From: Straminergon stramineum | Taxonomy: Eukaryota > Streptophyta > Bryopsida > Hypnales > Calliergonaceae | NCBI GenBank assembly: GCA_963920665.1 | Contig: OY987266.1 | Coordinates: forward strand, 13,831,001 to 13,895,000 | Reading direction: 5' to 3' | DNA: 64,000 nt | Part shown: piece by piece, positions 17,227-64,000 of the stretch | How positions within the stretch are numbered: position 1 is the stretch's first letter | Layout of the letters: each line of letters opens with the position of its first letter | The notes under the pieces: generated by a model | What the model was told of the DNA's origin: nothing | Database searches by the model: none | The model's input: the letters and a program-made list of their open reading frames with translations, nothing else | Position numbers and translations under genes: made by a program

Positions 17227-20030
17227 TGTGCTTGAGGCGTGTCTTCGTTAGTTGACCATGTAATATCAGATCATTCCAAATCAGCGAATGGGATCTTTTT
17301 GTTAGACTACTACCTACCCACATTGTTCTAGTTGGGAAGCTTTTGAGAATTTCACGCGACACACAATATGCAATACCAACTTCCTTGTGGTGGGGGACGC
17401 CAGTGAGCTTTTCCTAACTTCAGCTGATCAAGAAGTTTTACCCTGTACTCAGATCGGGCACAAAGGATGAAGCATGCCATATTGGTCATCCCTGATTGTT
17501 TTTTCAAGCATCATAGACTCTCGACTCTTGCTGTCGTTCAGGATAGTTGGAAGTCTCAAGCTTTGCCTTGAGCTGATGAGAAGTTGCTCATGGCAAGTTG
17601 CATCACAAATCGGGATACGCAGGACGGACTTGATAGTGTTCAGATTTTAGTCCTCAAGATCAGTTGTGGTCTGCGGTCTTCTCTGAATTTGCAAACCTGT
17701 CGGTTGGAGAAGCCTTGGATGCACTCAGTAGATCTAGGAAAATGGGGTGAAAATTTCCTTTTCTGGTAGTTTTCTTCAGGTGTGCTTCGCACGATTTTCA
17801 TTTGGGAAGCGAATGGAGTGCCTGATGCGAAGGTGCCGCACTGCAGGTACTGTAGTTGAGATAACTGTGTCATCGAGAGATTTTCCCTTGTGCTTGTGCC
17901 TGATACTTGGAAAATCTAGCTTTCTGAGACATTTGCAATGTTGTGAAAATTCCTAGGGTACACTCACAGCAAGGGAGCATATCTTAGCTCTAAGAGAGAT
18001 CAAATAATTTCTCCACAGTGGAGGATTGAGATTGAATGGGAGAGTAACACTTGTTAGGAGATAATTTACCTCTTGAACTAGGCTAATTTTCAAATATGAT
18101 CAACATCACATCATTCAACCATGAATCAAGGATGTCATTGATAGTCATAGTCAAGGATTGTATTTAATTTTGTTGATACATGTTCCAAATCACCATCCAT
18201 CTACTTGTGGGCTTCCTGCACTCCCTTCCAACTAACACTAAAGTTGTAGAACCAACAATAGCTACTTTTTCAATGTTAAAACCTTTGTTGGCATTGAAAA
18301 AGGTTGCAATTTGCTTCTTCTATCAATTCTTCAATTGATTGACCTAGTAGAATAAAACAAGTATTATGAAATGGACATCAAATCCTTATTTTACAATCAA
18401 GTACAATCAAGCTCTGAAATAGATAGCAAATGATGGAAGGGAGAGGGGAGGTGAACCTATTAGCATGAAATAATACATGAGTACATTTGAATTTAAGTTT
18501 TTAAGAAAACATGTGAAGAGTTTAAACTTCAAAATTGGTGATTTTAGAATAGCATAACATGCTTTAAGAAGTATCTGAGGAGAGTGGCTCTCATTTGGTT
18601 CTATAGTATAATGAGGATTTGAATAATTATTATATAATAGGTCAATCACTACATGCAATCAAAATTGTATTGAAAGCAACAAAATCAATATCAGATTGTA
18701 TTTCATTAAAGTACTACAACAACTCAGATTCTTCTTATTGAAAAAATGTTTGTCCATTATGGCATGAATCATTGAAGTCAATCAAAGATTGATTCTTTAG
18801 AGTTAAACTTTCTTTCTAAAGAATCAATGATTTGGTATTGATTGTACTATTTTTATATGATTGCTCATGAAGAGAAGAAAGACTCCATTTGCTTAATTAA
18901 GAATACATGGAAGTTGATCCTTGAGGTGCCTTACTACACATGCCTTCAACCATTTGGGGGGGAGTTTTGCAATGCACATAATTTGATGTTGTACCAAAAT
19001 TATAATGCTCATAATAATATGGGTTTTACTATACTTACAATGACACAAATAGCAATATGCTACAATATACCAATATTCATTGCATATGATATGCCAATTA
19101 TTAAGGTGTGTACACCAATAATCATCACTACAGAAAAATAAGAAAAATCAACTACATAATCAACTAAGCTCCCACCTTCCTCTAGTGGTTGCCATGAAAG
19201 CACAAGAGTTTTACAAACTTGGAGGCTTTCCCTATAATGCAACATATGAGCTGAAGAAGAATGTAATGAAAGGCCTCAATTTATTTATATTGGGTCTTAG
19301 GCCCAAGAAGCCATTTTTGAGCCTCTCACCTATTAAATAGGTCAAAGTTATAACTTCATATTCCTCCATTCTAAGAAAGATACCTAAATGAATTTCATAT
19401 TATAATGTTCATATTGAAGGGGAAGCTCAAAAGTAAAATTGACATCGTGTAACAAGCTTGATGTACAATGCACACTATCAATCAAAGTCCAAACTTGTGA
19501 AAAAGTACAGAAATTGCTTGGGCCTTGAGGAATTAATGGCAAGTGAAAGGAGATTTCAACACAATTTAGCATGCCTTATTTGGACAAAGTATGAATGAGA
19601 AATTTTCAAAGTGCTAATCATAGGTGTAGCATAAATCAATACTACAAATTGGAGCTAAAAATGGCGATCTCAGAACTAATATCTTCAGAACTAATTCACA
19701 TCTTCAGGACTGATTCATATCTTCATTGAAGGCAAGAATTAGACGTGACGGTTTTCGGTCAGTGACGATTTGGGGTTTACTCACCTTATAACACGAATCA
19801 TGCATGAGATGGCAAGCTCAATTTTTTTGAAATATCCGTTTTCTTGTATTCATTCCTGGTTGCAGATCATCGCTGATGACTACATCAACAATCCTTGTTC
19901 TCAACTCTTTACACTATCACATCATGTTTTCAGACAAGGTAACAAAAAGCTGTCCTCTCAAAACGCCTACTCATACCAACTCCAGAATTTCCTACACTTT
20001 TCCATATTCAAACATTTCCTACTTAGATTC
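17227..20030. other. API5 3' flank and AT-rich intergenic DNA
   Basis: API5 and RRP46 converge here. 17227-17960 is probably API5 3' UTR and flank. 18000-20000 is AT-rich; the only structure I recognise is a decayed copy of the family B TTAA repeat at about 19288-19535. No gene seen. Confidence 0.6.
19288..19535. repeat. Decayed copy of TTAA-inserted repeat family B
   Basis: About 250 bp aligning along its length with the two better copies at 47465-47717 and 52556-52805, including GCCCAAG near one end and GCTTGGGCCTTGAGG at the other. The terminal TTAACCCC is mutated at both ends, so this is an old copy. Confidence 0.7.
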
Positions 20031-28252: not shown

Positions 28253-28261
28253 GAATTATTT

Positions 28262-28530
28262 GGAGGACGTTAAATCCTCCATTCGAACTGGGTCCCGCAG
28301 GGGCAGATTTACCATGGGAAAAACGCTGGAATTTTTTATTTTTTGCACATTTTTTATTTTTTGCAAATTCTGAATTCATATATGCAATCAGGGACCCCAA
28401 ATCAGATTGGAGAGGTCTAGAACATACCCTAGACAAGGCTCAAAATAGGGGGTAGTTTTTACTTTTACCCCGGATAAAACACAAAATGCCCCTGCGGGGC
28501 CCAGTCTGAATGGAGGATTTAATGTCCTGC
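28262..28530. mobile_element. MULE-type MITE with 9-bp target duplication, copy 1
   Basis: 269 bp. The 16-nt ends GGAGGACGTTAAATCC and GCAGGACATTAAATCC are inverted, extending into a longer imperfect TIR around GGGCCCAGT/ACTGGGTCCC. The nonamer GAATTATTT is repeated at 28253-28261 and 28531-28539. A 9-bp duplication with long TIRs is typical of Mutator-like elements. The interior has no coding capacity. Sister copy at 42371-42641. Confidence 0.85.
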
Positions 28531-28539
28531 GAATTATTT

Positions 28540-30149
28540 GACAACAGTATAGTCAATCAAATTGAAGACTACTTCCATGAGCAAAAACCTACCAAGTTTG
28601 GTCTTTGATATGTAGCAACTGAAATGGTACAAAGCAGTAGGGGAGTCATAGTAGCAAGGAGTTCTTCAGCTAACTACTTGTTCCTTGAGCTGTGAACAAA
28701 TTCTTCAACCAAAGCATAGCGGAGTTCTTTAGCAATTCAACACAAGCACTCCCCATGTAAGGTAAAACAACCATGAGGTGGAATTGGAGGCCTCAACATG
28801 CCCATGAGTTCCAGGCTGCCGAGAACGCAGAATTGTGGCACTGTTGCAGTCTAACGTGGCCGACATTGTGCCACATCAAAAAAAAATGAAATTTTTTTTT
28901 CAACTTATTTTTGCATATCAAAACTAAAATTTTATTTTTTTTGGTATTTATTTGATTGACAACAGCCAGCTGTTCCTAGATAGCATAGGGAATAGGTGGG
29001 GAACAAGCGGGGAACAACCCTGAAATGGGCATGTAGAGGCCTTAGATTTCCTCTAATGCCATTGTGGTCAGAAGACTCCATAGTCGACATCTATGGAATG
29101 ATCCCATTATGGGTTTTTTCAGACCCCATCGTGGGTTTTATTACTAAATGAGATTTGGACCACAATCAATGTCTTAGCTGACAGTAATGGAGTGATTAGT
29201 GAATGCATTAGGAACTTCTAACTTTTCAATGTAATTTCATTGTAGGAAGTGACTTTATTAGGCCTTTCACATTAAAAATTATTATGACTGCTTTAGGTGT
29301 GTAAGATGAGCATGATGGATACAAATTTTGTTGGTTCTGGGGTAATCTATAGACTCTTTTGGGCCATGATGGGCTGAACACTTCAAAAATTCATAGCAAA
29401 TTCATACTTTGTCAAAAAAATATAATTTCAAATGCTCTCATTGTTTCTCACATCTGTCTTTATGTGGAAAAAAAATGAAAAATTTCAGCAATGGCGTGAG
29501 TCCGAACTCCTAATTCTGACCACAATGGGCTGTTTTACCTTATCATTCACGAAGTTGAATTCATTCAGGGAATACTTACAGTGATGGCTTCCCTATTGGA
29601 TCTCCCCCCTAATAGCAATCAATGAAACAAGCTAATAAGGAACCTGTGCAATTAGATCTCGGTAGTACCACCTTCTCTAATATCACATCCTTTGTTTACA
29701 TTCACAAAAGGAAATATACAATTCAAAACTCCCTCTATATTCTCACTGGCACAAGAAATTGCATACAAGGTGATGCAGTAAGGAGAAATTTCATACCTTC
29801 TTGGCTGTTGTGACTAGCAACCCGACGTTTTACAAGTATAGAGCTCCATAAAACCACGTGCATCTTTAGACATTACTATTGTCACAATGTTATTGAATGA
29901 GCTCAAATTAATGATGTTCCATTTTCGTGACCTAAGATATAACATTAGATCTCATCAATGTATTTGGTTTCAAATACAATATTACTCAGAAGAATTGCGG
30001 CCTACATTGCAATGGAGTGTGAAAGAACAACACATGTCATGCAGCCACGTGGTATCATTGAAATTTCATTTTTGCACAATACAGTAGAAAATGGCAGTTT
30101 TTTTGACAATTTCCAAGAGCAAGGAACTTAGCCCTACCTGGAAAATCCA
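28540..30149. other. Intergenic repeat-derived DNA
   Basis: No gene. 29060-29530 is homologous to the flanks of the family C insertion at 34.27-35.23 kb, and TTAA at 29272-29275 marks the equivalent empty site. Confidence 0.6.
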
Positions 30150-39908: not shown

Positions 39909-41108
39909 ATGCACTCTGTAGGTTTTTGGTGTAGTTTCTTCCTTTGTGTACAATAATTTGGTAGAAAGAATGGGGATTGTCCTGCAGGGAAAGTGTGTGG
40001 AGTGTTCAATTGTGTACACAAGTGGACAGACAGGAAACAAGGGGATGGAAATAAGCGTCAGTTCGCGGGGAAGATCACTATGATACATGGGTGTCCTGTA
40101 GGAGGAGAAGTTTGAGCAAACCCCTCAAAAAAAGCTGAATGATTCATGACTGGCATTGTGAGTTGTAAACTGTGACCGTAGATTGTAACCTGTTTCAGTA
40201 ATAAGATTTGTGGTTGTCCAGAACACAATGACATTTGTGCAGATACGAATTCATTTCTGAAATGGGACTTCGGCTGGAGTACTGGACAGACTGGCTGTAG
40301 TTTACGTGAAAAGAACTGGAGCAGTGAAATATTGAAACACTGGTCTAATTGAGGAGCATTATACTATATTTCATTGTCAGGCATACATACAGTACAGGAA
40401 CTATTATATGACTCAACCAAGGACTGGATGAAAAGAAATAAATCACTCTTATGTGAGCGACGCTCACGTTTGGAAATACGACATGAGTTCTGGATTGTGC
40501 GAAAAAAAGAATCTGAATTCCTTTCTTGGCACACTCTACAGTGCTTCCTAGTATAGCTCCTCTACAATGTTGTGGAATCTCTTGTCTTTGATCGTTCTTT
40601 TCCGCTTGAATTGCGAAAAAATTATCTGCTTCTCATCTCTACTTCACAGCATTGGACATCCTCATCAACCAGCAGCTCACTCAAATGGCTCTACTGCGTT
40701 ACAAGGCATCATGGGCTATTCTACTCATTGTCGATTTCTGACAGACCAGGAATATACTCTAAGCTTAATTACATCGAAGATGATGGAGCTACTGGGAGGT
40801 AACTTACGGTGGGCCGTCCCGCCGCAGCACCAACTCCTTGGGGTAAGCCAACGGACACAGACAGACGGCAACACAAGAATCTGTAGTGTAGCATCAGTCA
40901 CCATGGCAATGACACGAGGACATTCGAGCGGAAGAGAAGGGGTCTCTACCGTAGACCGAACGTAACGGTAGTCTGTTTGCGGTGCACCCTGAGTCCTGTA
41001 ATAATAATAAGCTGCTCTGAGTACAAAGAAAAGCAGCTTTGGAAGAAACTCAAGGCAGTTATACCTCGCCGGGAATATATGATCGGTGTTGGCTCCCCAC
41101 TTTCATGG

Positions 41109-42089
41109 TTAACCCCTCATCGCCGGAGGGGACGAAAAGTGTCCTCATATTGTCTGGCAGTCAAATTCAAAGTGCTGCTACTTTTGCAGCCGATGTCCAA
41201 ATTCAATAAAACTTGTTGGAAAAGTTTCTCATATTAGTCTAGTTTCATTGGTAAAATTTCCAGATCAATCCAACATGTACTGAGTTCTTGAGAGCCCTTC
41301 GAAGTTCACAGGTTCAATTTGAGTTCACCACATTGCATTCTGATGGCTGCAACTTCGGGGGCTTGTAACTTTTCCAGAAATTGTTTTTTTTCAATAAAAT
41401 TTTCTGGGTTTTGTTCCTCTTAAGTTCCAATTATTGTGGCTAAATGTTCATGTCAATACAAGATGATTTGAATGTTTGGGAGCAATTCGAAGTTCAAAAT
41501 CGAGACGTTTCTGCATTACAGTGAACTTCAGCGGCTTATAACTTCTTCATAAGTGGTCCGTTTTCAATAATTTTTGTTAGAAAAGTTTTACATACTAGTT
41601 TAGTTTGTGTGGTTAAAATTTCATATCAATCCAAGAGGTAATGAGCGGCTGAGAAGTATTTTAGTAGAGGGAGGTTTAGCTATAGATGTGATTTTTTGCT
41701 ACTTCTTTCACTGTTTTTTGACATTTCAAAACAATTTTGCAGACACAATGAGTCAATTGAATGATATTTTTTTTCACCAAAGTGTTTGTCTTTTGGTTTT
41801 GAATCACTTTGTAGTCTAAAGTTTTTTCATTTGAGTAGGTTTAGAAATTGAATTTCACCTCCAAATGTGTTTTTAAGAAAATTTCAGCATCTTTTTTCAG
41901 CACTAAAACATTGTAATCATTCAATCCATATGGTCAAATGACCCCAAATTGGTTTCACACCATCTACAGCATGCACTCTACAAGATTGTATGGTTGAGAT
42001 TTTAATAATTCACTGAAATTTAGACTTGTAGCACTTGAAAAGCAAGGATGCTTTTACACATGTTTGGACTTCAGGCAATGAGGGGTTAA
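41109..42089. mobile_element. Non-autonomous piggyBac-like element, family A, in FKBP pseudo-exon 5
   Basis: 973-bp core flanked by TTAA at 41109-41112 and 42086-42089. Termini CCCCTCATCGCC and, inverted, CCCCTCATTGCC. The intact paralogue reads CATGGTTAAAATGC at 48918-48931, exactly the uninterrupted site with one TTAA. The left end GGGGACGAAA also matches the left end of the 7.2-kb piggyBac relic at 54664. No transposase inside. Confidence 0.9.
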
Positions 42090-42370
42090 AATGCATTGGT
42101 GCAACCCTCTGATGATTTGCTTGGAAAGACCATTCACGATTTTCAATTTAACTTTTTCACTCTTTCTTTCTCCATTGAAAACTTCCAGTACAAAACCCCA
42201 TTACGACACCAGTAGAACTGAACTCTCCACAGAAAGCGCCATGTCTCCACATTGTCATAATCCTTGAGAAGGAAGCTCCTTACTCATCAATTTTCAGAAC
42301 TTTGGCAAGATGAGAGATGCTCATTCTTGTTAACAATTATTTAGTCTAGGAAAGACCACATATTGTGAAG

Positions 42371-47464: not shown

Positions 47465-47717
47465 TTAACCCCTCAAGGCCCAAGCAGTTTCTGTACTTTT
47501 CCACAAGTTTGAACTTTGATTGGCAGTATGCATTGTACATCAAGCTTATTACACGATGTCAATTGTACTTTTGAACTTCCCCATTCAACATGAACATCAG
47601 AATATGAAATTCACTTAGATATATACTTTTTGAGAATGTAGGAAAATCAAGTTACAACTTTGACCTGTTGAACACGTCAGAGGCTTAAAACAAGCTCCTT
47701 GGGCCTTGAGGGGTTAA
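47465..47717. mobile_element. TTAA-inserted element, family B, copy 1
   Basis: 253 bp with TTAA at 47465-47468 and 47714-47717. The 16-nt core ends CCCCTCAAGGCCCAAG are perfect inverted repeats. Copy 2 at 52556-52805 lies in opposite orientation. No coding capacity. Confidence 0.88.
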
Positions 47718-48553
47718 ATGGGCACTTTCTAAGTTCCTACCTTGGAATAAAGTATACTCCATATTTGCTTTGAAATTTTGCATTAGAGTACCTAACAAGA
47801 TTTAGAACTCAATGATGGAGTGACACAAATTCATGTAATCTGGTACCCGGAATGGGGATTGTCCTGCACGGGATTTATGTGGAGTATCGAATGGTGGACA
47901 TGTGTGGACAAACAGAAAACAGGGGGACGGAAATAAGCGATCCATGATACATCGGTGCCCTGCAGGGGTAGAAGTTTGAGCAAAAGCAAAAAAATAGTTG
48001 AATCGTGATTCTTGACTGGCTAGTTAGTTCGAAACTATAGTCATCGATTGTAAGGTATTTCATTTGTTGTTGTTCAGAACACAATGACAATTGTGCAGAT
48101 ACAACTTCACTTTTGAAATGGGATTCATATATAACAGTCTGAAGAACTGTACTGGTTGTACTGCAATATTGAAACACTGGTCTAATTGAGGAGCAGTATA
48201 TTTCGTTCAGGCATGCACTGACTATCACATGACCCAACCAAGGACTGGATGAAAAAAATGAATCTCTAAAATGAGCAACGTCACGTTTGGAAATACGACA
48301 TGAGTTCTGGATTGTGCACAAAAAGAATCTGGAATCCTTTTCTTGGTACACTCTTCAGTGTTTCCAAGGTTAGCTCCTCAACAATGTTGTGGAATCTCTT
48401 ATCTTTGGTCATTCCTTTCCGTCTGAATTGCGAAAAAGAAATCTGTTGTACATCTCTACAACTTCACAGAATTGGACATCCTCTTCAACCAAATAGCCCA
48501 CTCAAATGGCTCTACTTCGTTACAGGGGAGTATACACGGCATCATGGGCTATT
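47718..48553. other. 3' flank of the FKBP16-3 gene
   Basis: From about 47850 this is the parental sequence of the duplicate at 39969 and includes the 3' UTR. No separate gene seen. Confidence 0.6.
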
Positions 48554-51084
48554 CTACTCAATGTTGATTTCTGAAAGACCAGGAATATACTCTAAGCTTA
48601 CATCGAAGATGACGGGGCTACTGGCAGGTACTCTGGGCCGTCCCGCCACAGCGCCAAGTCCTTTGGGGTAAGCCAACTGCAACAGACAAACGGCAAAACA
48701 AGTATCTGTTGCATCAGTCACCATGGCAATGACACGAGGATATACGAGCAGAAGAGAAGGGGTCTCAACCATAGACCTAACGTAATGGTAGTCTCTTTGC
48801 AGTTTGCTGAGTCCTGTAATAATAATAAGCTGCTCTGAGTACAAAGAAAAGCAGCTTTGGAAGGAAGGCAGTGATACCTCGCCAGGAATATACAATCGGC
48901 GTTTGCCCCCCACTTTCATGGTTAAAATGCCCTCGTCTAACCCCTTGATGATCTGTGTGGAAAGACCATTCACGATTTTCAAATCTTTATTCGGTCTTAG
49001 TTTCTCCATTGAAAGATCTCTAGCTTTCCATTGAATGCACAAAATAAAAATAAAAATACGAACACAAGAGATCAATCAGGATTCCAGAAAATGGTGTTCA
49101 GATTGGAGGTCAGAGTGGGAGCTAATCTCCACTCGGGAAATGCAAATTTCTAGTGCAAAACTCCATTACGACACTATTAGAACTGAACTCCACAGAAAGC
49201 ACCATGTCTCCATATTGTCATAATCCTTGAGAAGCAAGCTCCTACGCGTCAATTTCAGAACTTTGGCGAGAAGAGAGATGTTCATTCTTGTTAACAAAAA
49301 TGATGCAGCTCTAACAAAATTATTAATACTACTCTTGTCATTCTACTTCTAGTGTGTTTGAGTGATAACTCACCGCACCGGCCCCGACTCGGAAGATATA
49401 TGGGATCCCTTTTTCCAGAGAACTGTTCCGTTGCCAACACAATGTCATGAGTAGAAAGAGAATAATGTCAAGAGTCCCATCAATGTGATAAATGATTTAC
49501 ATCCTACCTCATAGTTGCATTAGCTAGTACTAGTTAGGATATCTAGATAAAGATTTCAGGTCAAAGTTAAATTTGGAATATCCAGTGGCTTACAGATTTT
49601 TTAACTAGACAATCTCCAAGTGAAACCACCGAGCGAACGTGAGCTGTCAGAAAATAGACGTAAAAAACTAGAATTAAACTTGAGATGACAGTAGTGCCAA
49701 CTAATTACCTGTCAAAGATTTTGCCACCAGGAATCATAGCCACGTAGTTCGCAGCAACCTGATTCAACAGACATGTTCAAATTAGAAACTAAATTACCCT
49801 CGATGCAGTACAGTAAGCCAGTAACCATCTATTGAATTGCTTTCATTGCCTTCCTATTGTGACATCCCCAATTGCTCCCACCATCAACACAGCCAATTTC
49901 AGAAATGAAGTCGAGAACCTGGAAGCCAACAATCGGAACCTCTCCATCTCCAACAACAATGTCTTTGTACTGAAGACCCGATTCAGTTGTCTGCATTGGG
50001 ATCTGCAAAGATGGCAACAGGAGCGATTAAAATCCATTGCTCATCTCACGAGCAAGGTATTTCACTTCCACGTCAGAAAGGTACTCAAGCCAAGGTCACA
50101 CAGACTTTGGAAACAATCTAAAAATCTGGAGTTGGTGATTGGAGTGATAAAACATTGTTTCAACACTATTTGCAAGGTCCCAATTTGTCTTTGCCATGAC
50201 ACAAACTATTGGGGTGACTATCATTCCACAAACTGGAATACGTAATTTTCTTGAAAGGAGCTGCACACATCTTGGGCCAAACTGTCGATTTACGGAAGAA
50301 TCAAGGTATTCAGGATGCTCTGATTACGTAAAATCTTCTTTCTTCTCACGTATCCTCTCACATATTGAGTTCAAGAATGAAACATTGATACTCAGTCAAC
50401 CATTATAGCGGAAGAATACTTGTAGTATACCGTCAACCGTAGTGCATTGAAGTAAAAAGGGTGAGCCGCCAATACAGCTCTAGAGTATTATGTGACTGGC
50501 ATTTGAGACACAGAATGCTAGATTAAAAACTCAAGGAAAATTTCAATACTCAAGATTCTTTTAGTACAAACAGATCAGATCTAGACATATATACATTCAC
50601 CAACGCTTACAGAAATGGTTTCCCAATCAGTTTCCCATACTTGTGTCGCCCTGCCTAGCACTTTAACAAGTCAGGGTACTGACCAATTAGACTATGGAAA
50701 CCGTAGTCATGGTTGCAGAGATCTTACATTATCGAGACCCTTCTCACAATCGCCGTCGCAGAGCTTGGCAGGTGGAGGGCCAGGTGGTAAGCCTGCAGCA
50801 TTGGCAAGGCTTCCGGGCAACCACGACAGAGCTCCACCCAGTGCTATGGCGGCCAGAGCCTCTCTCCGCGGCATCTCAGCAGCCTGCACGTTCTCTCCTT
50901 TCCTGTGGACGGCGCATCGTACAACCGATGCTGGCTTGGGGTTCGAAGACAACGTCTTCACCGCTGGACATGCCCAGATGGTTGCTCCTGGCATCGTCAC
51001 ATTCGCAATCCACAATGTTAGGTCATGGCGTCCCCACATTGCCCTAATCTCGACTTCCAAGGCATCCAATTTGTATGCAGTCAT
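48554..51084 (-). CDS. FKBP16-3: FKBP16-3-like thylakoid-lumen immunophilin
   Basis: FKBP-type immunophilin of the chloroplast lumen. Exons (minus): 51084 or 50994 to 50728, 50002-49919, 49758-49709, 49422-49374, 48952-48878, 48676-48554; phases join, TAG stop. Family text: TTESGLQYKDIVVG, VGFQ, AANYVAMIPGGKIFD, SSLEKGIPYIFRVG, IIKGLDEGILTMKVGGKRR, YIPGE, AYPKGL and SSPVIFDVSLEYIPGL. Before the domain, MPRREALAAIALGGALSWLP ending ANA is a twin-arginine lumen-targeting signal, preceded by a Ser/Ala-rich chloroplast transit segment. Two starts fit: 51084 (245 residues) or 50994 (215), the latter giving a typical transit peptide; Arabidopsis FKBP16-3 has ~220. Most lumen FKBPs of this group lack some isomerase residues, so activity is uncertain. 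A partial dead duplicate lies at 40-43 kb. Confidence 0.93.
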
Positions 51085-52186
51085 TAAAATTGACTCTCCT
51101 TAAGAATATGTGCACAACGTACATTAAGTATCTCAGGTGCACGAAGGCATCAACTGCCTCCAATCCAGAGTTCTAATATAAGAAAAGGTTAGACCTACTG
51201 GATGTCGTGATGTCTGACACACTCTATAACATTCGAGTATACTACAAGGATATGATTTTGTGACAAAAAGACGGGCCACTTAATCTTAAACTTCATGTCA
51301 TACACACTAGAAGTCACGTCTGTCTGTCTGGGAAGCTGACCCTGCTCCAATCTCCTCACATTTGCATCACACTCAATACCATTGTGAGCTTCTTCAAACC
51401 AAAATTCCTCCATACAAACATACCATATTCACATGAATACGCAACCTTGCTTCAACCTCTTCAAAATTTTATGCCACGATCAACACCAATTCCAGCTTCA
51501 TTAAACCCAAAACTCTCGCTACCTAAATGACATGGGTAAGAGCCTCAATCTCGATAGAACCAATTACAGAACAAACGAGGTAGTTCAACGGCACTGCAAT
51601 TGACCCAAGCAAGCATTCGGAACCTCAAAGGCACGCCCAATTTTGATCAATCAACAAACAATGTAGATTAGTACACATTGCAGTAGCGCAATCCCCAATC
51701 ACAATAAGAAATCACAGTTCCCATTACAAAATCCAAAGCTGCCAAGTACACTCAGACCTCTCTTTACTCCAACTACCACCCGAGGCCCCAAGTGTGCTAC
51801 AATGTGGCCCGTGGCCTGTGTGCAAGCAATTCTGGACGGCCATTTCAGAGAAGATGGGTTTGAGAGCAGCCAGACGAACCCGCAGTGGTCGAGTGGAGGC
51901 AGGAATGCGCCATAGCCGCCCCGCCACTGAATTGGATGCAGCAATAGGAGCTTGGCAATTCTTGTGACCGCTGCCTGGCGATGGATGGACGAAGGGGCTG
52001 CGGGTCCTGGGGGAGTGAGGGAAGCGCGGTCGCGGTGACGCAGATGGGAGCTTGCGCTTCAGGGGGGCTGCCTGCCTGCGTGGGCAGGGCTGGCTGGCTA
52101 GCTGGGGCGCTGGGCTTATCCCATTTTGCTCTTTTCTAGTTGCGAATAGGCGGAGGCTCTCCCAGGGAACAGAATAATGGACCAAG
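51085..52186. other. Upstream region of FKBP16-3
   Basis: 51760-52130 is GC-rich with a 195-codon minus-strand open frame that resembles no family. Its Met at 51849 begins MAVQNCLHTGHG, which could be an alternative first transit-peptide exon, but no firm splice link was found. Confidence 0.4.
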
Positions 52187-52830
52187 TTAACCCATAAACG
52201 CCGATGCGGACGTTTTTCGTCCGATGAATAACAAGAAAGTAATCTGTAGGAAGTAGGAATGCAGTTTTTCAACCGTTTTTTTTTTAACACAATTGTGGAG
52301 ACGTGCTGCATCTTAGAGGGCCAAAAATACTGTCATTCGGATGCATTCATAATTTTAGGGAGCATAGACATGGAGGACAGAACACGGAAATACCCGTGCA
52401 CGGTGTTAGGTCGTAGGCTGCCCTCCTACAATTTTCATGAGGGCAATGAGAGTTCCCCTTTCTTTGGTACTGTTCATGAACGTGTTTCTCTCCCACGGTC
52501 AGTGCACAATGAACAGTACTCAGCCTGCTTTCCCCCGCGGGGACCAGTCCGTCGTTTAACCCCTCAAGGCCCAAGGAGCTTGTTTTGAGCCTCTGACCTG
52601 TTCAACAAGTCAAAGTTGTAACTTGATTTTCCTACATTCTCAGAAGTATATGTAAGTGAATTTCATATTCTGATGTACATGTTGAATGGGGAAGTTCAAA
52701 AGTACAATTGACATTGTGTAATAAGCTTGATGTACAATGCATACTGCCAATTAAAGTTCAAACTTGTGAAAAAGTACAGAAACTGCTTGGGCCTTGAGGG
52801 GTTAAGGGTTTAAAAGGGCAGACTTCCATG
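52187..52830. mobile_element. TTAA-inserted element, family D, copy 2, with nested family B element
   Basis: Begins TTAACCCATAAACGCC at 52187 and shares GCGGACGTTTTTCGTCCG and GATGAATAACAAG with 31022-31253. Its right part, GTTTAAAAGGGCAGACTTCC, resumes after a family B element at 52556-52805. The far right terminus is not recognisable, so the end is approximate. Confidence 0.65.
52556..52805. mobile_element. TTAA-inserted element, family B, copy 2
   Basis: 250 bp, TTAA at 52556-52559 and 52802-52805, termini CCCCTCAAGGCCCAAG in inverted repeat. Inverted relative to 47465-47717 and highly similar to it. Sits inside family D copy 2, so it is the younger insertion. Confidence 0.88.
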
Positions 52831-54663: not shown

Positions 54664-54889
54664 TTAACCCCTCATTGCCTAAGGGGACGAAATCCACCCC
54701 TTGCGAATTGGAAAATGGTCTAGCGCTCTCATGGATGGGGCGGATTCACTCATTTTAATTTGGAACTTTGAAGGCAAGTAGGTGTTCTACAGCTTCAATT
54801 GAAATCCACATCTCAAATCATGCGAGTTGGTTAGAAAATTTGTCCAGATTGGCCACACCTTGCGTTGTCGCAGGGATAGACTGCGCAGG

Positions 54890-55930
54890 ATGACCAAGAG
54901 ATGCTGGTTGAAGACCATAGGGTCTGAATTTACTCTAGATCCCTTACTCAAGGCACCTCGAGAAGATTGAACTGGTTTGATTGTTCAGTGCAAGTATATT
55001 GTGATGGCGTCCTTTTACTTTGGTACTAAACTCTATAGGGCCATTCCGCATGACTTCGAGAGAAATGGCTACTTGGCATTGTCCTTGTTTACGATTTCTG
55101 AGTTCCAGTAGTGGTGCCGCACTTCCAAACCATCATTTGTGCAATTGTGGTTTTTATTTTATCAATGCATCAATATTTGTTGTGGTAGCCCCACTTCGTT
55201 GATTTCATCAAGTGGAGTTGTGGATGCACCACCTCACGCATTTGGTGGCTTTCTTGAAAAAGCACAACATTGTGACTTTGCTTGGAAGTAAAATGGCAAC
55301 TACTCTACGAACAGGGAGGGCATCTGTTGAAGAGCTTCAAAAAATTCAGGATTTGTTGTTCAACTAGGCAAAGGGAGAAAGTGGTAGTGAGGTTGTTGCA
55401 CAATCCAATGTAAATTGCCTCCATGAATGGTACTTGTTGGAGGCGGAGGATTCTCATTTTAGGTAGCAACTGCAGTTCATTGCGATGAACAAGAGGTGGA
55501 GGTATTTGGTGTACTGATGGATTGCAAAGTTGTTGGGGTTGAAGAGATGAGTACAAGAAGGCGAGCTGTAAGGGATCTCATCAAAATTTTGGCATTCATT
55601 TGTTAAAAACTATGGCTTGATACTATTGATGAAGTCCCAAGCTCGTAACATGGCAAGGGCACGTCTTCAAGAGAGACCATAGGTGAAGCGTACAAAAATT
55701 TGCAAAGGACAAACTTGAGTGCTACTAAGGAGCCCTTTAGGTGTCACATTAGGCCAAAGCAACTTTGCGCATGTTCAATTGGTGGTTACACAACCGGGCG
55801 AGCTTGTTGCTCAAGCCATAACAGAGCACGCGAGGATAGCAACAAAAGTTGCTGAATTTGAGGACCCCCATCTAGAGACGCATGAAATTCGTGGAATGCT
55901 TGGTAGGGCCTAAAGAAGCACTAGAGTGCA
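54890..55930 (+). pseudogene. Decayed unassigned coding region inside the piggyBac relic
   Basis: Plus-strand fragments such as GRASVEELQKIQDLLFN (near 55315) and QPGELVAQAITEHARIATK (near 55790) look like protein text but are broken by stops. They match no family I recognise. They could be a second element-encoded protein or captured host sequence. Confidence 0.35.
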
Positions 55931-56175
55931 TGGCTCACGAAGATTTGGAGTGGTCCAAGGTCAGAATTCAACGACTATAGTTGTAGCGGCCACTACTTGT
56001 TTCCTTGCGATAAATGTAGGACATGTAGTGCATCATTGATGTCAACAGGTTGGGGACCAACTAGCAACCATTATGGCACATCCACTTGAGCTGATAGGCT
56101 GGATTCCACCTACAATCTAGCCGGACCTTCGAAGCCCACCAATCCTATGAAAGAGGAATATAGTCAACCATTCAT

Positions 56176-57481
56176 GCCCCTATCTCCTTGGGGTGCCCAA
56201 AGTGTCTTAGTGAGTAAGGGGGACCTTGGGGGGACTTCCCAAGCCTTGCAATAGGCTAAGAAGGGAGAAATGAGAAACTCTTGAGCAAATAGGGCGCAAT
56301 AGCGCCTTAGTTACGAAGGGCATAGTGGCTTGTCATACATTCTTGGAAAGCTCTTGAGAATACGCTTCTAACCGTCCAAAGAACGCGTGATTTGGACTGG
56401 TAGGCTAGAAGTTATGGCCGTTCAAAGTGAGGGGTGTCCTGGTGGCGCCGAGACACTCAAAGACTAGGTGTGAGGGGTTCCTAAAGAATCACTCAACAAA
56501 GCATGGTATGTAGCATATCACTAGAAAGATAAAAAAGACAAGGAACCTATAATGCCAAGCATTACAAGTTTCTAAGCCATGAGCCAAAAGTTATGGCCAA
56601 CAGAAGGGTTGTGGTGAAGGCGTGACACCGCACTTGGTGAATCCGAATCTTTGGAGGGCCATAACTTTGTGAGAACTTGTCCAAATGGGACAAGTGAGCA
56701 GTCCATAGGCATCTACTCGTTGCGCAGATATCCAAAATGGTCTTGCATGTGGTCTTTGGAGCCTTGACAACAAAGTTACACTGTTTGGAAGTTCGGGAGT
56801 CCAAACGGAGGTAGAACTTGGGGAGTTCGATTGGAAACAGGTGGTCTTCCAAAACCCAAGGGGGTTTGGGAAGTCCCTTTGACCCATAAGGGGGGGGCTA
56901 CCAAATCCTACAAAGAGTACTATAGGAGGGGTTGGTCTCCCTCCTCACTTTCTCCTTGAGCCTTGGTGAGTCTTGGTGACTCATGGATGGTGATGTAACT
57001 TCACCACTGGCTTCAAAGCTCCTTGGGACACTTGTGTATGTGTCTTGGGGCACCGGTTGGTTGGAGTCCCACTCCTTGCTAGGCCTTTGGTAATGTGTCC
57101 CGAGTTGTGAGTCCCAATTAATGTTGGTGTGAGAGTAGCAAGTACACAATGGGCCTAGTATGAAGTGGGGTGACAACCAAGGGCGGTTAGGACTGTGGTG
57201 AGTAATGCCACCATGAATCCTAGCATAGTAAGATGGAAGTTCCACCCCATATCACCAAGTGATATACCAGTTTTCACGAGTGGAATGCATGCTAGAAGTC
57301 CCGAGCACTAGGACTTAGCAATGTGAGTTGGAAATGGGAACTAATGCTGTGAGTGTGTGGCATATGTAGTGTTAATTAGTTGGGCCTAAATGATACTGGT
57401 ATTGGAGCATGGTGAGCCCTGAAAGTTGTGAAGGGCTCTTGAAGTCTGGTTGGAGCTACAAGGTGTTATTAGGGCCACGAT
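56176..57481 (-). repeat. Diverged LTR-like repeat related to 24054-25141
   Basis: Read on the minus strand it follows the solo LTR order: TCGTGGCCCTAA start, GTGAGGAGGGAGACC, CAAATCACGCGTTCTTTGGA, GCAAGGCTTGGG and a GGGCATGAATGG end. Several indels and mutated termini make boundaries approximate. No adjoining retroelement genes recognised. Confidence 0.7.
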
Positions 57482-57678
57482 AACCACCAATAGCAACACT
57501 CTCCCCGTCTTACCTTAGCAGGTCGTCCGCAACGCCAAAAGCTCAGTCCTGCACCACATGAGGAAGATGCCATCTTTATAGATGGACCTGATTCTATGAC
57601 AGAAAAGTGTTGTCGTGGATTAAATCTCCTTGGATCCTTTATTGATGCGGGATCATCTGAACTGTTGCATGTTCCAAC

Positions 57679-57842
57679 TACTAGAAGAAATCTATGTTTG
57701 CCTCCACAACATCTACATGACATGCTTGTTGAGGCAAACACAATATCTACATTGCACAATGTAGAAAAACATAGATTTTGTATTTGCCTCAACAAACATG
57801 TCATGTAGATGTTGTGGAGGCAAATGTAGATTTCTTCTAGTG
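57679..57842. mobile_element. CACTA-type foldback MITE 1
   Basis: 164-bp near-palindrome with ends TACTAGAAGAAATC and, inverted, CACTAGAAGAAATC, flanked by AAC on both sides (57676-57678, 57843-57845). A 3-bp duplication and CACTA ends fit the CACTA superfamily. The arms pair over most of their length around TTTGCCTC and CATCTACATGACATG. Confidence 0.82.
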
Positions 57843-58288
57843 AACTAATACAATGGAGGCCACATTTTGAAGCACCATTCCCATAATGGGGGATATGTTG
57901 CCATGTAAGCAATCGGGACCCAACAACTAGTTCAGTGGCATGCTTCCCAACGGTGTGTGGGTCCTTTTGCGGTTGCTAGGCTATGACCTTAGTCAATGGG
58001 GCAATCTACAAGAATTTTTTGGTGAGGTCGAGGAATCTTGGTGGGAGGGTGGCACATAATTTTTCGGAGTGCAAATTAGTAGCCCTATTGGTTGGCGCTA
58101 GCCACTAGGTATGAGTTATAGACTGTCGATGTTTGGATTGGCGCAATTTTCAACATCTTCTTGGTGACTTCCACGAATCAACATTGTTGCTAAATCCAAG
58201 TCTAGAGTTGGTCACCTTCGGACCCGACATCATTGTATCGCAAGACATCCCTTCTGCATCCCCCACCTCAAGGCAGTTCGAGACACCT

Positions 58289-58418
58289 CACTAGTAGAAA
58301 ACTGTGTTGCAGTCAACAAAATCCAACTAACATGTTTTTGTATTTTCTATTTTATAGTAGAAAATACAAAAACACATCAGCTAGATTTTGTTGATTGCAA
58401 CTTAGTTTTCTACTAGTG
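58289..58418. mobile_element. CACTA-type foldback MITE 2
   Basis: 130 bp with perfect 15-nt inverted ends CACTAGTAGAAAACT, flanked by CCT (58286-58288, 58419-58421). The body is foldback, with TTTTTGTATTTTCTA against TAGAAAATACAAAAA. Confidence 0.88.
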
Positions 58419-58799
58419 CCTCTATGACCTAGATGCATGGCGGAGTGAGCCTTGCCAGTGCATGACTACAACACCCTCTCACATTATGATAGTTGGACAT
58501 CTGACTCTGAAGATGCATCCTAGATGGCCAAATTTCACGACTTCACAATTAATTTCTTTGACAATACAAACTCCGATCACGAAATGGATGAGTCGGTTGA
58601 TAGGCTATCAGAAGATGCCATTTTGATCCCAAAATATATGACAAGTTCAGTCATCTTGACCTAGACCACAAGGCCATGGTTGAACAAATTTGGCATCTAT
58701 ATTGTGATAGTGAGTGGAGACACATATCGCCTCACTTGTTGGGTGACCGGTAGCACTTTCAAGGCCCTATCCTACAACCTACATCGAGACCTCTTCTAA

Positions 58800-60915
58800 G
58801 GCATGCGGAGCCTACACATTTTTTCAAAATGTTATAGGAGGACACTACTTTGGCGAAGCTTGTTGTGGAGACTAATTGGTATACCAAGCAAATGTGCATC
58901 GTGTTGAATGATCCATGTCAAAGAGGACAACCACTTGGATTGAATGGTGGCACTAAGTGGACGGATGTTCAAGTGGTGGAGATGCGAGCATTTTTAGGCA
59001 TGGTCATCCTCATGGGCCTAAAATTCACACCTCAAATCCGGGAGTACTAGAGGGCAAATAGATTTTGGCAGTGTGGGCTGATTCCCATGGTCATGTTGGG
59101 AGATCACTTTGAAGTATTCACTATAAGAAAACCATGTTTTAGGTGACATTTAATATAACAATCGATGTCAAAATGAATAGATTTTAGGTGACATCAAATA
59201 AAACAACCCCTATTTTTATATTAGCAATGATGTCCAATGTAACATCAAGATGTTACATTGAACATCATTGTTGACATAAAAATAGAGGTTGTTATATTTG
59301 ATGTCACCTAAAATCCGTTCATTTTGACATAAAAAAACTATGGTTTCTTATAGTGATTGTTCTAGTATTTGCATTGTGTTGATATCTTGACTCTATGTGA
59401 GGATAAGGATGACAAACATTATGATAAGATTGGGAAAGTGCATTGGGTGTTGGATCATTTTGTTGAAAGGTCCCATTCTCTCTTCAACCTTGAGAAGTTT
59501 GTGACTATAGATGAGGTGATAATTGCCTATCGTGGTCATTTCTCTCCAATTAAGCAATACATGAAGTCCAAACCCACCTGTTATAGCATCAAATGTTGAA
59601 AGCTTGTCTCCAATTTGTTTCATTCCATCTATCGTGTCTTGTCGTATTTGGGAAAAACTAGTGGTGTATTGGAGGTTGGCCAAGGCTAGAAGGTGGTGCA
59701 TCAACTCATGACAAGTTTGGGCCACAAGGACATACAGTTGTTTGTGACAACTTCTTCACATCCTTGCAATTGTTTCATGGTTTATTGGACTGTGGCATAT
59801 ATGCTACTAGTACTATGAAGGAACAACAAGTTGGCTTCCCCACAGTGCTAATGGGAATGCCAAAAGGTGCTCCCCCCAAAACTATCCTTTTTTGGCAAAT
59901 GCACTCAAGTAAGCACATGGCCACCTCTAAGGTTTTTCATCATGACATGACGTTGGCTTTTCACATCAAGATGTCTATCAGTGTTAGTCCAAACATGTCC
60001 AAATCATGTCCAAAAGCTGAAAGCTAAAATTTTTTATTTTTTTTGATGGCCTATCATCAACTTGGATGGTCGGTCCGTCCATATCAATAGTCCATTGTCC
60101 AAAGTGACAAACAAATCGTCCCTATTGATGACAAATCATCCCTGTTGACAATAGATCGTTCTTGTAGATGATAGATCGTCCCTGTTGACGATAGGTTGTT
60201 TGAGCCAACAGATGGACCATCCCAAAAAATAAAAATTCTTGGGTCCAGACAGGTGCGGGGGTGAATCTTGACATTTCATCCTTTGACTGTCCATCCAGAC
60301 ATGATGTGACGCTGAAAATCTTGGCCGCTACAACATGGTATGACTCTAAACTTATATCATTTCTGAGCATAAGTGCCAATCCAGATGGTCTTACCAGTGC
60401 AATGCAATGGTCTTAGGGAGTGCGTGGGGAGGTGAACTCAATACCGCAACAATCCAAATACCAACAATACATGAGTGGTGTAGACCTTATTGACCAAATG
60501 AGAGGAGACTATATAGTGCAATTTCACTCAAGGAAGTGGTAGCACAAATTGTTTTCTTTTAGCATTGACTCCTCTTTACAAAATGCTTGGGCATTGTACC
60601 ATCACCACCGTGAAGACTTTCCGGGCAAAATGATTTGTCACAATCAATTCTACTTGAGCGTGGCCAAGATTTTGGTGGTGCCACTAATAACAACAACTTG
60701 GACATGTACCATTTATAACAAGTGCCCTTCAACATTACATGTTAGCATACAACACCCTAAAGGAGTTCATTGCTGATGCCAATGACGTAAGAAGAAGTAG
60801 TCCTATCTTTGCGAGGCATGTGGAATGATGTTTATGTGTGCCTAACCTTGTTTTGGGAAGATTCATGGCACAAAAATGTGGGCTCTTTATGCTAGTGGCT
60901 AAAGAAAATTGCATG
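58800..60915 (+). pseudogene. piggyBac-family transposase, broken
   Basis: Plus-strand relic of a DDE transposase (PiggyBac domain) read across at least three frames. In order: LAKLVVETNWYTKQ (58853), KWTDVQVVEMRAFLGMVILM (58951), an in-frame stop near 59048, a MITE at 59119-59355, FVTIDEVIIAYRGH (first catalytic-type Asp, 59510-59512), KQYMKSKP, CDNFFTSLQLF (second Asp, 59746-59748), GVDLIDQMRGDY (third motif, Asp codons 60483 and 60492), RKWWHKLFSF and a Cys-rich tail CEACGMMF...CFGKIH. This is the piggyBac domain order including the C-terminal zinc-binding segment. Frameshifts, stops and the ~60050-60420 region (short ~21-bp GATCGTCCCTRTTGA-like repeats) show it is dead. piggyBac transposases are uncommon in plants. 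Confidence 0.88.
59119..59355. mobile_element. CACTA-type foldback MITE 3, inside the transposase
   Basis: 237 bp with ends CACTATAAGAAA and TTTCTTATAGTG, flanked by ATT at 59116-59118 and 59356-59358. Near-perfect foldback around GATGTTACATTG. Removing it with one ATT places DHFEV and YLHCVDI in the same frame with a single stop between, as expected for an insertion into a once-continuous reading frame. Confidence 0.9.
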
Positions 60916-61880
60916 TTTTTTTGTAGCCTAGTTGTTGGCGACGAATACTCGATCCCTTGGTAGTTTGAGTCGCATAGGCAAGATCCACAAGAGAGCCCTC
61001 ACCATCAACGGAGGAGATGTATGGTAGCCAAAACAATTGGACTTCATGTAGTAGTTGCCCAATTGGGGCTTGTAGTCATTAGCATTGAGCATTCCACACA
61101 AATTTGGTTTCTTTAAATTTTTTTCCTTGATTGTTGAACACTCCCATTGCAAAGGGTGGTACATTATTTTTATGCAATCATAGTGATGTCGATCTTGTGG
61201 ACCGGCTTTGTAATGTCCTGCTTCAATGGAATTTTTTTGTCGACAAAGTTCGTGATCTTGTTCCTTAATGCATGCTATGTATTGTAGCTGAAATTTACAA
61301 CTTGAAGGTTGCCCTCTGAAACAGCTCAGACAACTCTTCTTCATGACCTTAATAACAACCAAGTCTGGGAATAAGCAATTGCCCCCTTTCCAACTATTGC
61401 ATGTCCAGTCAATCGGACTTTTATGGTGACCTATTATCTACTATTGCTATGGAGCCCCATGTGCAGTCATCTGATCACCGTGAGCCTCTACTATGTCATT
61501 TGATTTGCAATTTCTCATACATTCTAGGTAGTTGTGGTCCAGAAACTTTGTTATCTTCTCATGTTGGTCATCACCTCCCGCTATATGAAATATTCTTCCA
61601 AAATTTTCATGTCCTTGTAGCCCAAATTTGATCTGGACGAGAGGATGGAGCCAGAAAACACTACGGATGGGTGATAGTGTTCAACAATCAAACTTTATAT
61701 ACTGAAAATCCATCACATGAAATCCTCATTAGAGGCAAATTTCCAACTCTTTTATGTGTCAACTATACATTTCAGCTGTGAATTTGATTAGAATTGCATA
61801 ATGAAGTAGGGCGGACACTTTATTTCAAATTGCCATTGTAAACTTCTGTAGCAAGTCTTTTGAGCTCAAGCAATGAAGGG
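60916..61880. other. Right flank of the piggyBac relic
   Basis: Short frames on both strands with no family match; ends at the right terminus. Confidence 0.5.
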
Positions 61881-61884
61881 TTAA

Positions 61885-64000
61885 GGTTTAGACTATGCGT
61901 CTTGAAATCTAGACCCGCCCTAGATGTTAGAAATCTATACCTATCCTAGATGTCTGAATCTAGATCAAGGTTGTCATATATACTAGACGGGTTAGGGTGA
62001 TCAGACAGGATGGACAAATGGGCAAACTAGACTAAATGGAAGGACGGTCCGGACAGTCCAGACGCCTTTCATATTTGAAATTTTTGAATTGGCAAGTTGC
62101 TTCCATGCTAGTGGTCTACATTAGAATCAGGGCGCAAATGTGGAAGTCAAGGCGGGGATGTCAGTGCAAGGCATTGACTTTCTGTTGGAGCACCAATGCC
62201 TCATTAGGGCACAGACTTCCTGTCACGGCGCGAACTTTAGGTCAGGGCGCAGACATCCCACTCCTCAACCATAGTGGGGGGGGGGAAGTCAAATTCGCAT
62301 TGAACTTGGTCATGGGATTCTTCTTTCCCATGGAGAGGGGGAACCCATTATGTAGCCAACCCTTTATTTGAATTTGGGGAATATCTTCAAATCAATGGTT
62401 GCATCAAGAGGTCCAACTACTTTTTGAGTTCAAAGACAATATATAGAAGCATGTCACTCCCTTCTTGGGGCCGGACTTCTCCTTCTTGCCTTCATCAAGC
62501 ACTTAAGAACTAGGACCCACCTCAAAAAAAAATTTAGAAAATGAAACTGAATTTCCAAACAAGAAGGACAAAATTTGTATGAGTCAAATCCCAAAAGGTT
62601 TGGAGTCCTAATTAAAGACAAGGTACATATTCGTTTAAATTCGAGTTCAAGGATTCATTTTTTTTTTTTCTAAATAGAACCTATTTGGAATTTAGGGTTT
62701 GGAGTTTAAAAATCAAATCATAACCAACTTATAATTTTTTGGATTTTTGTTCAAGGCTCTATTTTTTAAATAAATAGCTACAATGTTTTGGATTGAAATC
62801 AAATACAAATTATAATGCATTGAAATATACTTGAAGGGTTTGTTTTCCGAGAAAGAGGCTACAAGGGTTTGGGTCTTCAAGACTTGAACAATATATTCTT
62901 GTAATGGGGATACCAAAAGGGTTTGGTATTAAAATGAAATTCAATCTAGTTAGATTATTTTTGAATTCAAGTTCAATAGGTTATTTTTGTAATGGGTAAC
63001 CCAAACCGGTTTGGGTCTTTGTGAATTGGGATTGAAATGAAATACTAGTCAAGTTATTTTGAATTCAATCATTCCCCTAGAAAATTTTATTTGTATAATG
63101 GGATACTAAAAGGGTTTGGTATTGAAATCAAATACTAGTTAGGTTATTTTAGAATTCAAGTTCAACGGTGTATTTTGGTAATGGGATCATAGAGGGCTTG
63201 GGAATTAAGATGAAACACTTGTTAAGATTTTTTTGGAATTCATCTTCAACGCATTCTTTTTGTAAGGGGCTACTAGAGGGTTTGGGATTGAAATGAAGTA
63301 CTAGTTAAGATATTTGAGTGTTCAAGTTTGTGAGTTTGCATGGGGAAGTTTGTCATGGAGAGAGTTCAAATTTGGCTTGGAGAAAGTACAAGTCTATCAC
63401 TTGGATAAGTTTCCACACATACACCTAGGTTAGGGCGTAGACGTCCCACTCCTTAACCATAGTGGGGGGGGAAGGTAAATTCGCATTGAACTTGGTCATG
63501 GGATTCTTCTTTCCCATGAAGAGGGGAAAACTATTAATGCAGTCTACCCTTAATTTGAGCTTGGGGAATATGTGCAAGTCAATGGCTACATGAAGAAGTC
63601 CAACTACTTTTTGAGTTCAAAGACAATTCATGGAAGGATGTGGCTCCTTTCTTGTGCCGCACTTGTCCTTCTTGGCTTCCCCAAGGACTTGAGAACTAGT
63701 CCCCACCCCCAAAAAAGGAGATTTCAGAAAATGAAAATTAACTTGTACACTTCAAGAAAAAAAATTTGAAATTAGACACTAGAGGTTTGGGGATTTATAA
63801 CGAAATACAAGGTACACATTTAAAAAAATTCAAGTTGAAGGATGCGTTTTCGAATTCTCCAAAGAGAAACTAAAAGGGTTCAGAGTTCCAAAAACAAATC
63901 AAACACGGCTTATATTTCGTAGAGTTCTAATTGAATGGGTTTATTTTTGGTAATGGGGGCTACAAGGGTTCGGAAATTGGAATTCACATCATTAACATAT
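61885..64000. repeat. Direct duplication with internal tandem units
   Basis: 62240-62560 and about 63430-63745 are direct copies (~1.19 kb apart), sharing CATAGTGGGGGGG, GCATTGAACTTGGTCATGGG and TCCAACTACTTTTTGAGTTC. Between them, units of roughly 80-105 bp around TTTGTAATGGG and GGGTTTGG recur near 62896, 62985, 63095, 63174 and 63258, and again near 63945. This looks like a larger satellite-like array continuing past the window. No gene seen. Confidence 0.75.

Follow-up and report, generated by a model that had tools for sequence, protein, structure and literature searches.

An inactive piggyBac-like transposon in Straminergon stramineum and its relatives with a linked second coding region

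What kind of transposon occupies positions 54664-61884 of a 64-kb stretch of the Straminergon stramineum genome (64,000 nucleotides, the window in what follows), and how are the members of its family built? piggyBac is a main transposon of genome engineering and is usually described from animals and with one gene. Sequence comparisons make it roughly 80% probable that this locus is an inactive copy of a piggyBac-superfamily element, belonging to a large, diverse and partly recently mobile set with members that carry two coding regions, open reading frame 1 (ORF1) and ORF2. Putatively autonomous members would be 4.7-6.4 kb long, with TTAA-CCC inverted-repeat ends, and would carry ORF1 and then ORF2 on the same strand, the PF13843 core of ORF2 being preceded by a long N-terminal extension that has conserved motifs of its own. 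The window locus alone is a minor find; the interest lies in the family, with its selected, linked ORF1 and its recent copies.

The ends and the coding relics of the window copy are as follows, L numbers denoting 10-kb loci of the same genome taken for comparison.

54664..54683, plus strand: left end, TTAA target duplication and 16-bp terminal repeat CCCCTCATTGCCTAAG (end-pair scan, alignment)
55293..55595, plus strand: ORF1 relic with conserved start Met at 55293 (tblastn to L025 ORF1; genome match C4:13886293)
55629..60896, plus strand: relic of ORF2, a piggyBac transposase whose N-terminal extension is long; nested inserts, stops and frame changes break it up
56097..56147, plus strand: ORF2 N-terminal motif GW-x2-P-x-I-x5-SP-x2-L (regular expression)
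57976..58110, plus strand: ORF2 N-terminal motif LGYD-x2-QWG... (regular expression, found in the window, L031 and L033)
59510..59512, plus strand: first catalytic Asp, in TIDE, aligned to D268 of T. ni piggyBac 6x67
59746..59748, plus strand: second catalytic Asp, in CDNFFTS, aligned to D346 of 6x67
60483..60485, plus strand: third catalytic Asp, in GVDLIDQM, aligned to D447 of 6x67
60771..60866, plus strand: Cys-rich C-terminal tail relic, aligned to metagenomic protein P0002 and by eye to P0004
61865..61884, minus strand: right end, TTAA and 16-bp terminal repeat CCCTTCATTGCTTGAG (end-pair scan, alignment)

PF13843 (DDE_Tnp_1_7) was found in three plus-strand frames of the stretch (E 2.2e-21, 2.6e-07 and 4.3e-07) and in three of four single ORFs; it was the sole family above cut-off on this strand, and a Pfam scan of the minus strand gave zero families. 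A read-through translation of the relic with X at stops, used for structure alignments, matched T. ni piggyBac 6x67 (E 1.2e-11) and piggyBat 9c0f (E 5.9e-11). The three Asp residues of the relic thus aligned correspond to the DDD triad of piggyBac, D268, D346 and D447 being named as catalytic residues of the T. ni protein in PMC7351741, and the Cys-rich C-terminal domain of the superfamily is also present. The start Met of ORF2 at 55629 is placed from the relatives. The GW-x2-P motif of the N-terminal extension was recovered by regular expression in the window, L021, L026, L030, L033 and L040, and variants were seen by eye in L024, L025 and L031. The window copy is dead: its five transposase tblastn segments hold 12 in-frame stops in 601 codons, in addition to frame changes. 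The observed/expected CpG ratio is 0.40 in the element versus 0.57 in the window, as expected of a methylated, decaying element. An Rfam scan gave nothing above the gathering score.

The stretch begins with TTAACCCCTCATTGC at 54664 and ends with TTAACCCTTCATTGC (minus strand) at 61884. TTAA stands at both ends, and the terminal repeats beyond it, starting with CCCC and CCCT, are identical at 13 of 16 bp, in agreement with the 12-19 bp inverted repeats with a CC[C/T]T-type start that are a hallmark in PMC2872659. By itself, this end pair is weak evidence because 0.26 equally good pairs within 12 kb are expected per shuffle of the window. The exact 15-mer end, by contrast, occurs 3 times in the window versus 0 in 200 shuffles, and 260 times (135 + 125) in the genome versus once (0 + 1) for a reversed-pattern control. 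The original prediction of a piggyBac relic with three acidic motifs, a Cys-rich tail and TTAA-CCCYTCATTGC ends is therefore borne out by PF13843, by the alignment to D268, D346 and D447 and by these counts.

Elements with the same or related ends occur elsewhere in the window, together with an empty target site.

41109..42089, unstranded: 981-bp non-autonomous element with ends as in the window element (exact end copy), TTAA on both sides
48922..48925, unstranded: single TTAA in a paralogous stretch, the empty site of the 981-bp element
47465..47717, unstranded: 253-bp miniature inverted-repeat transposable element (MITE) with related ends, TTAACCCCTCAAGGCCCAAG
52556..52805, unstranded: 250-bp MITE, 95% identical to the one at 47465-47717
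19299..19539, unstranded: an older member of this MITE family (85% identity) with one decayed end

The flanks of the 981-bp element are a diverged duplicate of 48634-49014. The empty site reads ACTTTCATGG-TTAA-AATGC with a single TTAA and the filled site has TTAA on both sides; the TTAA duplication is thus shown for an element with these ends. The empty site fits both an insertion at the 981-bp locus and a precise excision at 48922. The surrounding segments, 39954-42336 and 47836-49297, form a partial duplication of an FKBP-frame region downstream of an ammonium transporter gene. At least 8 inverted pairs of the exact end, among the genome places listed, lie 913-982 bp apart, the size of the 981-bp element. 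The 7.2-kb and the 981-bp element have GGGGACGAAA in common at their left ends (54683-54692 and 41128-41137), and a small palindrome, CCCCT...AGGGG, is found in these left ends and not in the right ones. The asymmetry of the left and right ends is conserved between the two elements. The 981-bp and ~250-bp elements may be mobilised in trans by a piggyBac transposase.

Could the ends belong to a PIF/Harbinger or Tc1/mariner element and enclose the transposase by chance? TTAA does include TA and TTA/TAA, which these superfamilies duplicate at their targets, and its presence is partly selected because it was in the search pattern. Such an origin is scarcely credible, however, since the empty site has one TTAA and the element stands between two, and since 11 of the 20 comparison loci have PF13843 between ends of this type. 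Neither a Harbinger domain nor a 3-bp TWA duplication was seen, PF13843 being the only plus-strand family and the duplication being TTAA.

The length of 7221 bp includes ~2.2 kb of nested inserts, which leaves ~5.0 kb.

56169..57455, unstranded: nested long terminal repeat (LTR)-like repeat with an approximate right boundary; its identity to 24242-25105 on the reverse strand is 68-74%
57679..57842, unstranded: nested CACTA-type MITE, 3-bp duplication AAC
58289..58418, unstranded: nested CACTA-type MITE, 3-bp duplication CCT
59119..59355, unstranded: nested CACTA-type MITE, 3-bp duplication ATT, splitting the transposase frame
59925..60321, unstranded: insert of ~400 bp within the transposase frame, target duplication uncertain

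This estimate of the original length is supported by the full relatives L021 (5058 bp), L025 (5149 bp), L027 (5174 bp), L030 (4906 bp) and L031 (5125 bp), which measure 4906-5174 bp. Therefore, the 7.2-kb plant element with defined ends that had been proposed stands as a plant piggyBac with such ends, its native size being ~5.0 kb and the rest inserts. The LTR-like repeat of ~1.3 kb is also nested in the relative L040, and its copy at 24242-25143 of the window starts on the minus strand with TGTCACGACCC. Near the right end of the relic, at 61127-61691, lies a 16-bp perfect inverted repeat, TTGATTGTTGAACACT, with arms 533 bp apart; this is a possible further nested element, for which no target duplication was seen.

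Relatives of the window transposase are numerous. With 116 of 472 candidates scored, a search of the genome assembly (G000; 326,016,511 bases in 59 contigs, the window included) gave 118 PF13843 matches; the matched part is free of stops in 14 of them. Zero matches were found in 14 control genomes, the nature of which is not stated. With the window transposase as the query, 93 matches were obtained (89 of 504 candidates scored), and the four closest other copies among the matches scored are 62-65% identical to it. The 20 comparison loci were picked because they were close to the window copy or had open frames and thus are not a random sample. In 11 of them (L021, L025, L027, L030, L031, L033, L035, L036, L037, L039 and L040), the transposase lies between TTAACCC ends, giving element lengths of 4665-6431 bp; the ends were paired by eye in L027 and L039, the second-ranked pair was used in L035 and L040, and the weak candidate pairs of L023 (7952 bp) and L038 (7478 bp) were excluded. 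Termini within the clade of the window copy are related and not identical, as in L021 (CCCTTCACCGCC) and at the right ends of L026 (CCCCTCATTGTTGC) and L032 (CCCCTCATCGAC), and the ends are found around a transposase as well as without one. Thus, neither of the outcomes that the original prediction had named as damaging to it, different termini around the transposase or ends never accompanied by one, was encountered, and the search for intact copies that it had proposed yielded the stop-free matches and the 260 exact ends. Its remark that piggyBac is scarce in plants does not hold, as piggyBac is abundant in this plant genome and land-plant entries have already been tabulated. Nor is the window copy a useful reference: it is a poor one because stop-free copies exist in the same assembly.

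In a 31-row tree, with midpoint rooting used for the drawing, the window copy groups with L026 and L032 (97/86) and next with L021 and L022 (100/100). Two further deep lineages of the same genome are formed by L035-L039 and by L034, and the metagenome proteins P0004 and P0008 nest within the subfamilies of this genome. L035, L036 and L037 (6.3-6.4 kb) are ~99% identical where aligned, with 0.30-1.47% difference per region, and occupy three places with different 10-bp flanks and open frames of 906-948 aa. Such near-identity of open-framed copies at distinct places suggests recent movement. The 3' part of L035-L037 also contains, on the minus strand, a frame of 158 aa whose Met comes early; the lists of longest frames of the other elements do not include it.

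Comparison of the upstream ORFs of the elements brought to light ORF1, a conserved domain of about 110 aa whose relic at 55293-55595 is missing from the original prediction; the anatomy given there, a transposase and ends, was correct as far as it went. Within the 64-kb window, tblastn with four ORF1 domains detected only 55290-55595 (E 5.8e-19, to the L025 ORF1). In 16 of the 20 comparison loci, the same domains (E<1e-3, self-matches dropped) detected an ORF1 that lies upstream of the transposase and shares its strand. It is present in two deep transposase lineages, the L021-L033 group with L040, and L035-L038. ORF1 gave no Pfam family above cut-off and no match to a PDB chain, and a protein search found no relatives; this last test is weak, since its query fused the decayed ORF1 to another frame and only proteins of similar total length were eligible.

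The linkage of ORF1 to the transposase was then measured across the genome. One ORF1 query gave 116 matches (150 of 184 candidates scored), and these were compared with 144 transposase rows, namely the 118 PF13843 matches and 26 hand-picked from the 93 matches of the window transposase; the rows include fragments of single copies, the window copy appearing three times and one locus twice. A transposase match lies within 12 kb of 78 of the 116 ORF1 matches, and in 78/78 the closest one shares the strand of ORF1 and lies downstream of it. The distance is below 6 kb in 73 cases, versus a random mean of 0.15 and a maximum of 2 in 1000 trials, for which the lengths of contigs C6, C9 and C11 were approximated. 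Even with the PF13843 matches alone, 59/116 ORF1 matches are paired, all on the same strand and with the transposase downstream. An ordinary single-gene piggyBac relic with nothing special in its structure would account for the core domain, the triad, the tail and the ends, which are all standard, but this is improbable in view of the ORF1 relic at 55293-55595 and the ORF2 N-terminal motifs, both of which are conserved in relatives. The canonical T. ni-type arrangement of one ORF of ~600 aa in ~2.5-3.5 kb was not observed, the elements being 4.7-6.4 kb long with ORF1 and ORF2.

ORF1 is under purifying selection between lineages. Pairwise NG86 estimates of nonsynonymous (dN) and synonymous (dS) divergence on the ORF1 domain are 0.222 and 2.487 for L023-L025, 0.243 and 1.597 for L024-L025, 0.263 and 1.374 for L023-L024, 0.314 and 1.548 for L025-L027, and 0.501 and 1.583 for L031-L033. 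The dN/dS ratios of these five pairs, 0.09-0.32, are rough because dS above 1 is uncertain, and dS is saturated in L029-L030 and L029-L031. Over all pairs used, differences are 0.63 at third codon positions versus 0.48 and 0.40 at the others. The dN of the transposase core in the five pairs is 0.14-0.38.

Several observations weigh against a family of linked ORF1 and ORF2. Four of the 20 loci (L028, L032, L034 and L039) lack a significant ORF1 upstream within 10 kb; L028 and L032 have an ORF1 match about 10 and 11 kb upstream, respectively, L034 has only one with E 0.03, and the sole match of L039 lies outside the element on the opposite strand, so that neither L034 nor L039 has a significant upstream ORF1. 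A scored ORF1 is found within 6 kb upstream for only 77 of the 144 transposase rows, and 38 of the 116 ORF1 matches have no scored transposase within 12 kb. With one query per search and part of the candidates scored, divergent pairs were missed. Even so, free ORF1 copies may exist, and decayed elements, non-autonomous ORF1 carriers and host-captured copies are candidates for the 38. Between L021 and L022, dN and dS are 0.036 and 0.09 for ORF1 and 0.062 and 0.071 for the transposase, and the few ORF1 differences among the young L035-L037 are mostly nonsynonymous, which shows that individual copies decay unconstrained once inserted. The 38 unpaired matches would also suit an ORF1 that is cargo, or an independent element nested in these transposons by chance. 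This explanation is very improbable, since strand and order are fixed in 78/78 neighbours, ORF1 occurs in two deep transposase lineages and its dN/dS is low.

How ORF1 joins ORF2 in the proposed two-region family bears on whether two proteins are made. An ATG in the +1 frame directly behind the ORF1 domain is present in 10 of 12 copies examined; in most, Lys and a basic stretch come after it. In all 8 copies measured, this ATG (the first in the +1 frame within 301-420 nt) lies 337 or 340 nt from the ORF1 Met. In the window copy, a shift has placed the corresponding ATG stretch in the frame of ORF1. In the L023-L024 comparison, the third-position signal switches to the +1 frame behind ORF1. The +1 ATG, its fixed offset and this switch together favour two overlapping ORFs. 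Against them, other frames score better than +1 in early ORF2 of L021-L024, which is put down to indels.

The divergence of the ORF2 start, with the first 150 codons just 25-38% identical, and a donor-like GTATGT at the ORF1 end of L036, with acceptor-like sites before ORF2, make a single spliced protein possible. ORF1 would then be a 5' coding exon of the transposase gene and the product one long protein with an extra N-terminal domain. In keeping with this, the strand and order of ORF1 and ORF2 are constant, and L033 has a long gap between ORF1 and the remainder and lacks the +1 start. The splicing of L036 is awkward, however, as GTATGT combined with its two nearest acceptors (2174 and 2183) loses the frame and weaker combinations keep it; the +1 ATG in 10 of 12 copies with its constant offset also argues against an exon. 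We regard the exon model as unlikely, though with an appreciable chance of being right; it overlaps the reading of the locus as an inactive member of an ORF1-ORF2 family, which allows either form of ORF1. It is quite possible, at somewhat less than even odds, that the plant elements form a two-protein piggyBac branch with overlapping +1 ORF1 and ORF2, in which ORF1 is required for transposition at TTAA and which has moved recently and feeds the non-autonomous families.

Other candidates and neighbours in the window were also considered. A minus-strand frame of 169 aa at 60928-61437 is treated as non-coding and not as a gene: it gave no Pfam family, no protein match and a best PDB match of E 0.22, and at the nucleotide level there was no match in the window or in the corresponding part of the relatives. 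P0001 was modelled with AlphaFold on a 10-row alignment, and the model was discarded (mean pLDDT, its confidence score, 36.9). The TTAA pair at 28270-28522 was rejected as piggyBac, as its repeat extends past TTAA and 10-bp direct repeats flank it; the short element there (28253-28540) has long inverted repeats (GGACRTTAAATCCTCCATTC...) and a flanking 10-bp direct repeat, GAATTATTTG, and looks like a Mutator-type MITE. The window also holds an ammonium transporter split over three frames, an FKBP frame, and a frame at 50707-51099 that by eye resembles a thylakoid-lumen targeting peptide; PDB matches are to non-plant proteins or insignificant. In the right flank, 62238-62384 and 63426-63571 form a ~147-bp repeat, 87% identical.

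The occurrence of piggyBac in plants has been stated in PMC10813416 and PMC10140906, it has been tabulated for land plants in Table 2 of PMC4438587, and 1230 PiggyBac copies are tabulated for C-fern in PMC6890710. The entries of the latter two papers, in the excerpts available, are table listings without structure, ends or ORFs. Among the papers listed, a literature search, which was not aimed at a second ORF, found none devoted to the structure of plant piggyBac; novelty of the two-region structure is therefore not claimed. Wuneng and Microuli were not confirmed as earlier plant TTAA MITEs, their hosts being unnamed in the excerpts. More than 100 transposase matches, near-identical open-framed copies, non-autonomous families and an empty site offer a native plant system for the study of TTAA transposition.

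Coral CMITEs and Acropora piggyBac-like elements have TTAA duplications, a CC[C/T]T terminal motif and small piggyBac-related elements, and the end of CMITE family III, CCCCTCAGTGTCCG, resembles those of the window family (PMC2872659). They differ in their animal host, in being ~100-bp MITEs and in having one ORF length tabulated per element (PMC2872659). T. ni piggyBac (IFP2) and piggyBat resemble the window family in their PF13843-type core, DDD triad, TTAA, CCC repeats, unlike left and right ends and Cys-rich tail (PMC7351741, PMC10140906), the aligned core being 24-26% identical. The T. ni element is 2472 bp long with a single ORF of 594 aa (PMC10140906); unlike it, the present family is 4.7-6.4 kb long and has ORF1 and a long N-terminal extension. 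The piggyBac transposase cuts its ends through hairpins and joins them at TTAA (PMC7351741), and ORF2 would likewise act by cut-and-paste at TTAA, as in T. ni.

The metagenomic proteins P0001, P0002 and P0004-P0010 (JGI, Logan) are close relatives, P0001 being 47% identical over 90% of the read-through. They are known from proteins alone, on short contigs, and searches of viral and genome contig collections found no relatives. PIF/Harbinger elements (Pong) have a transposase plus an accessory ORF1 that assists transposition. They differ in having another transposase and a TTA/TAA duplication, and the likeness proposed here is a functional analogy, a relation in sequence not being claimed. By this analogy, ORF1 of the plant elements may help transposition through DNA binding or assembly, and its linkage raises a testable question, whether this branch of piggyBac needs a second protein as PIF/Harbinger does.

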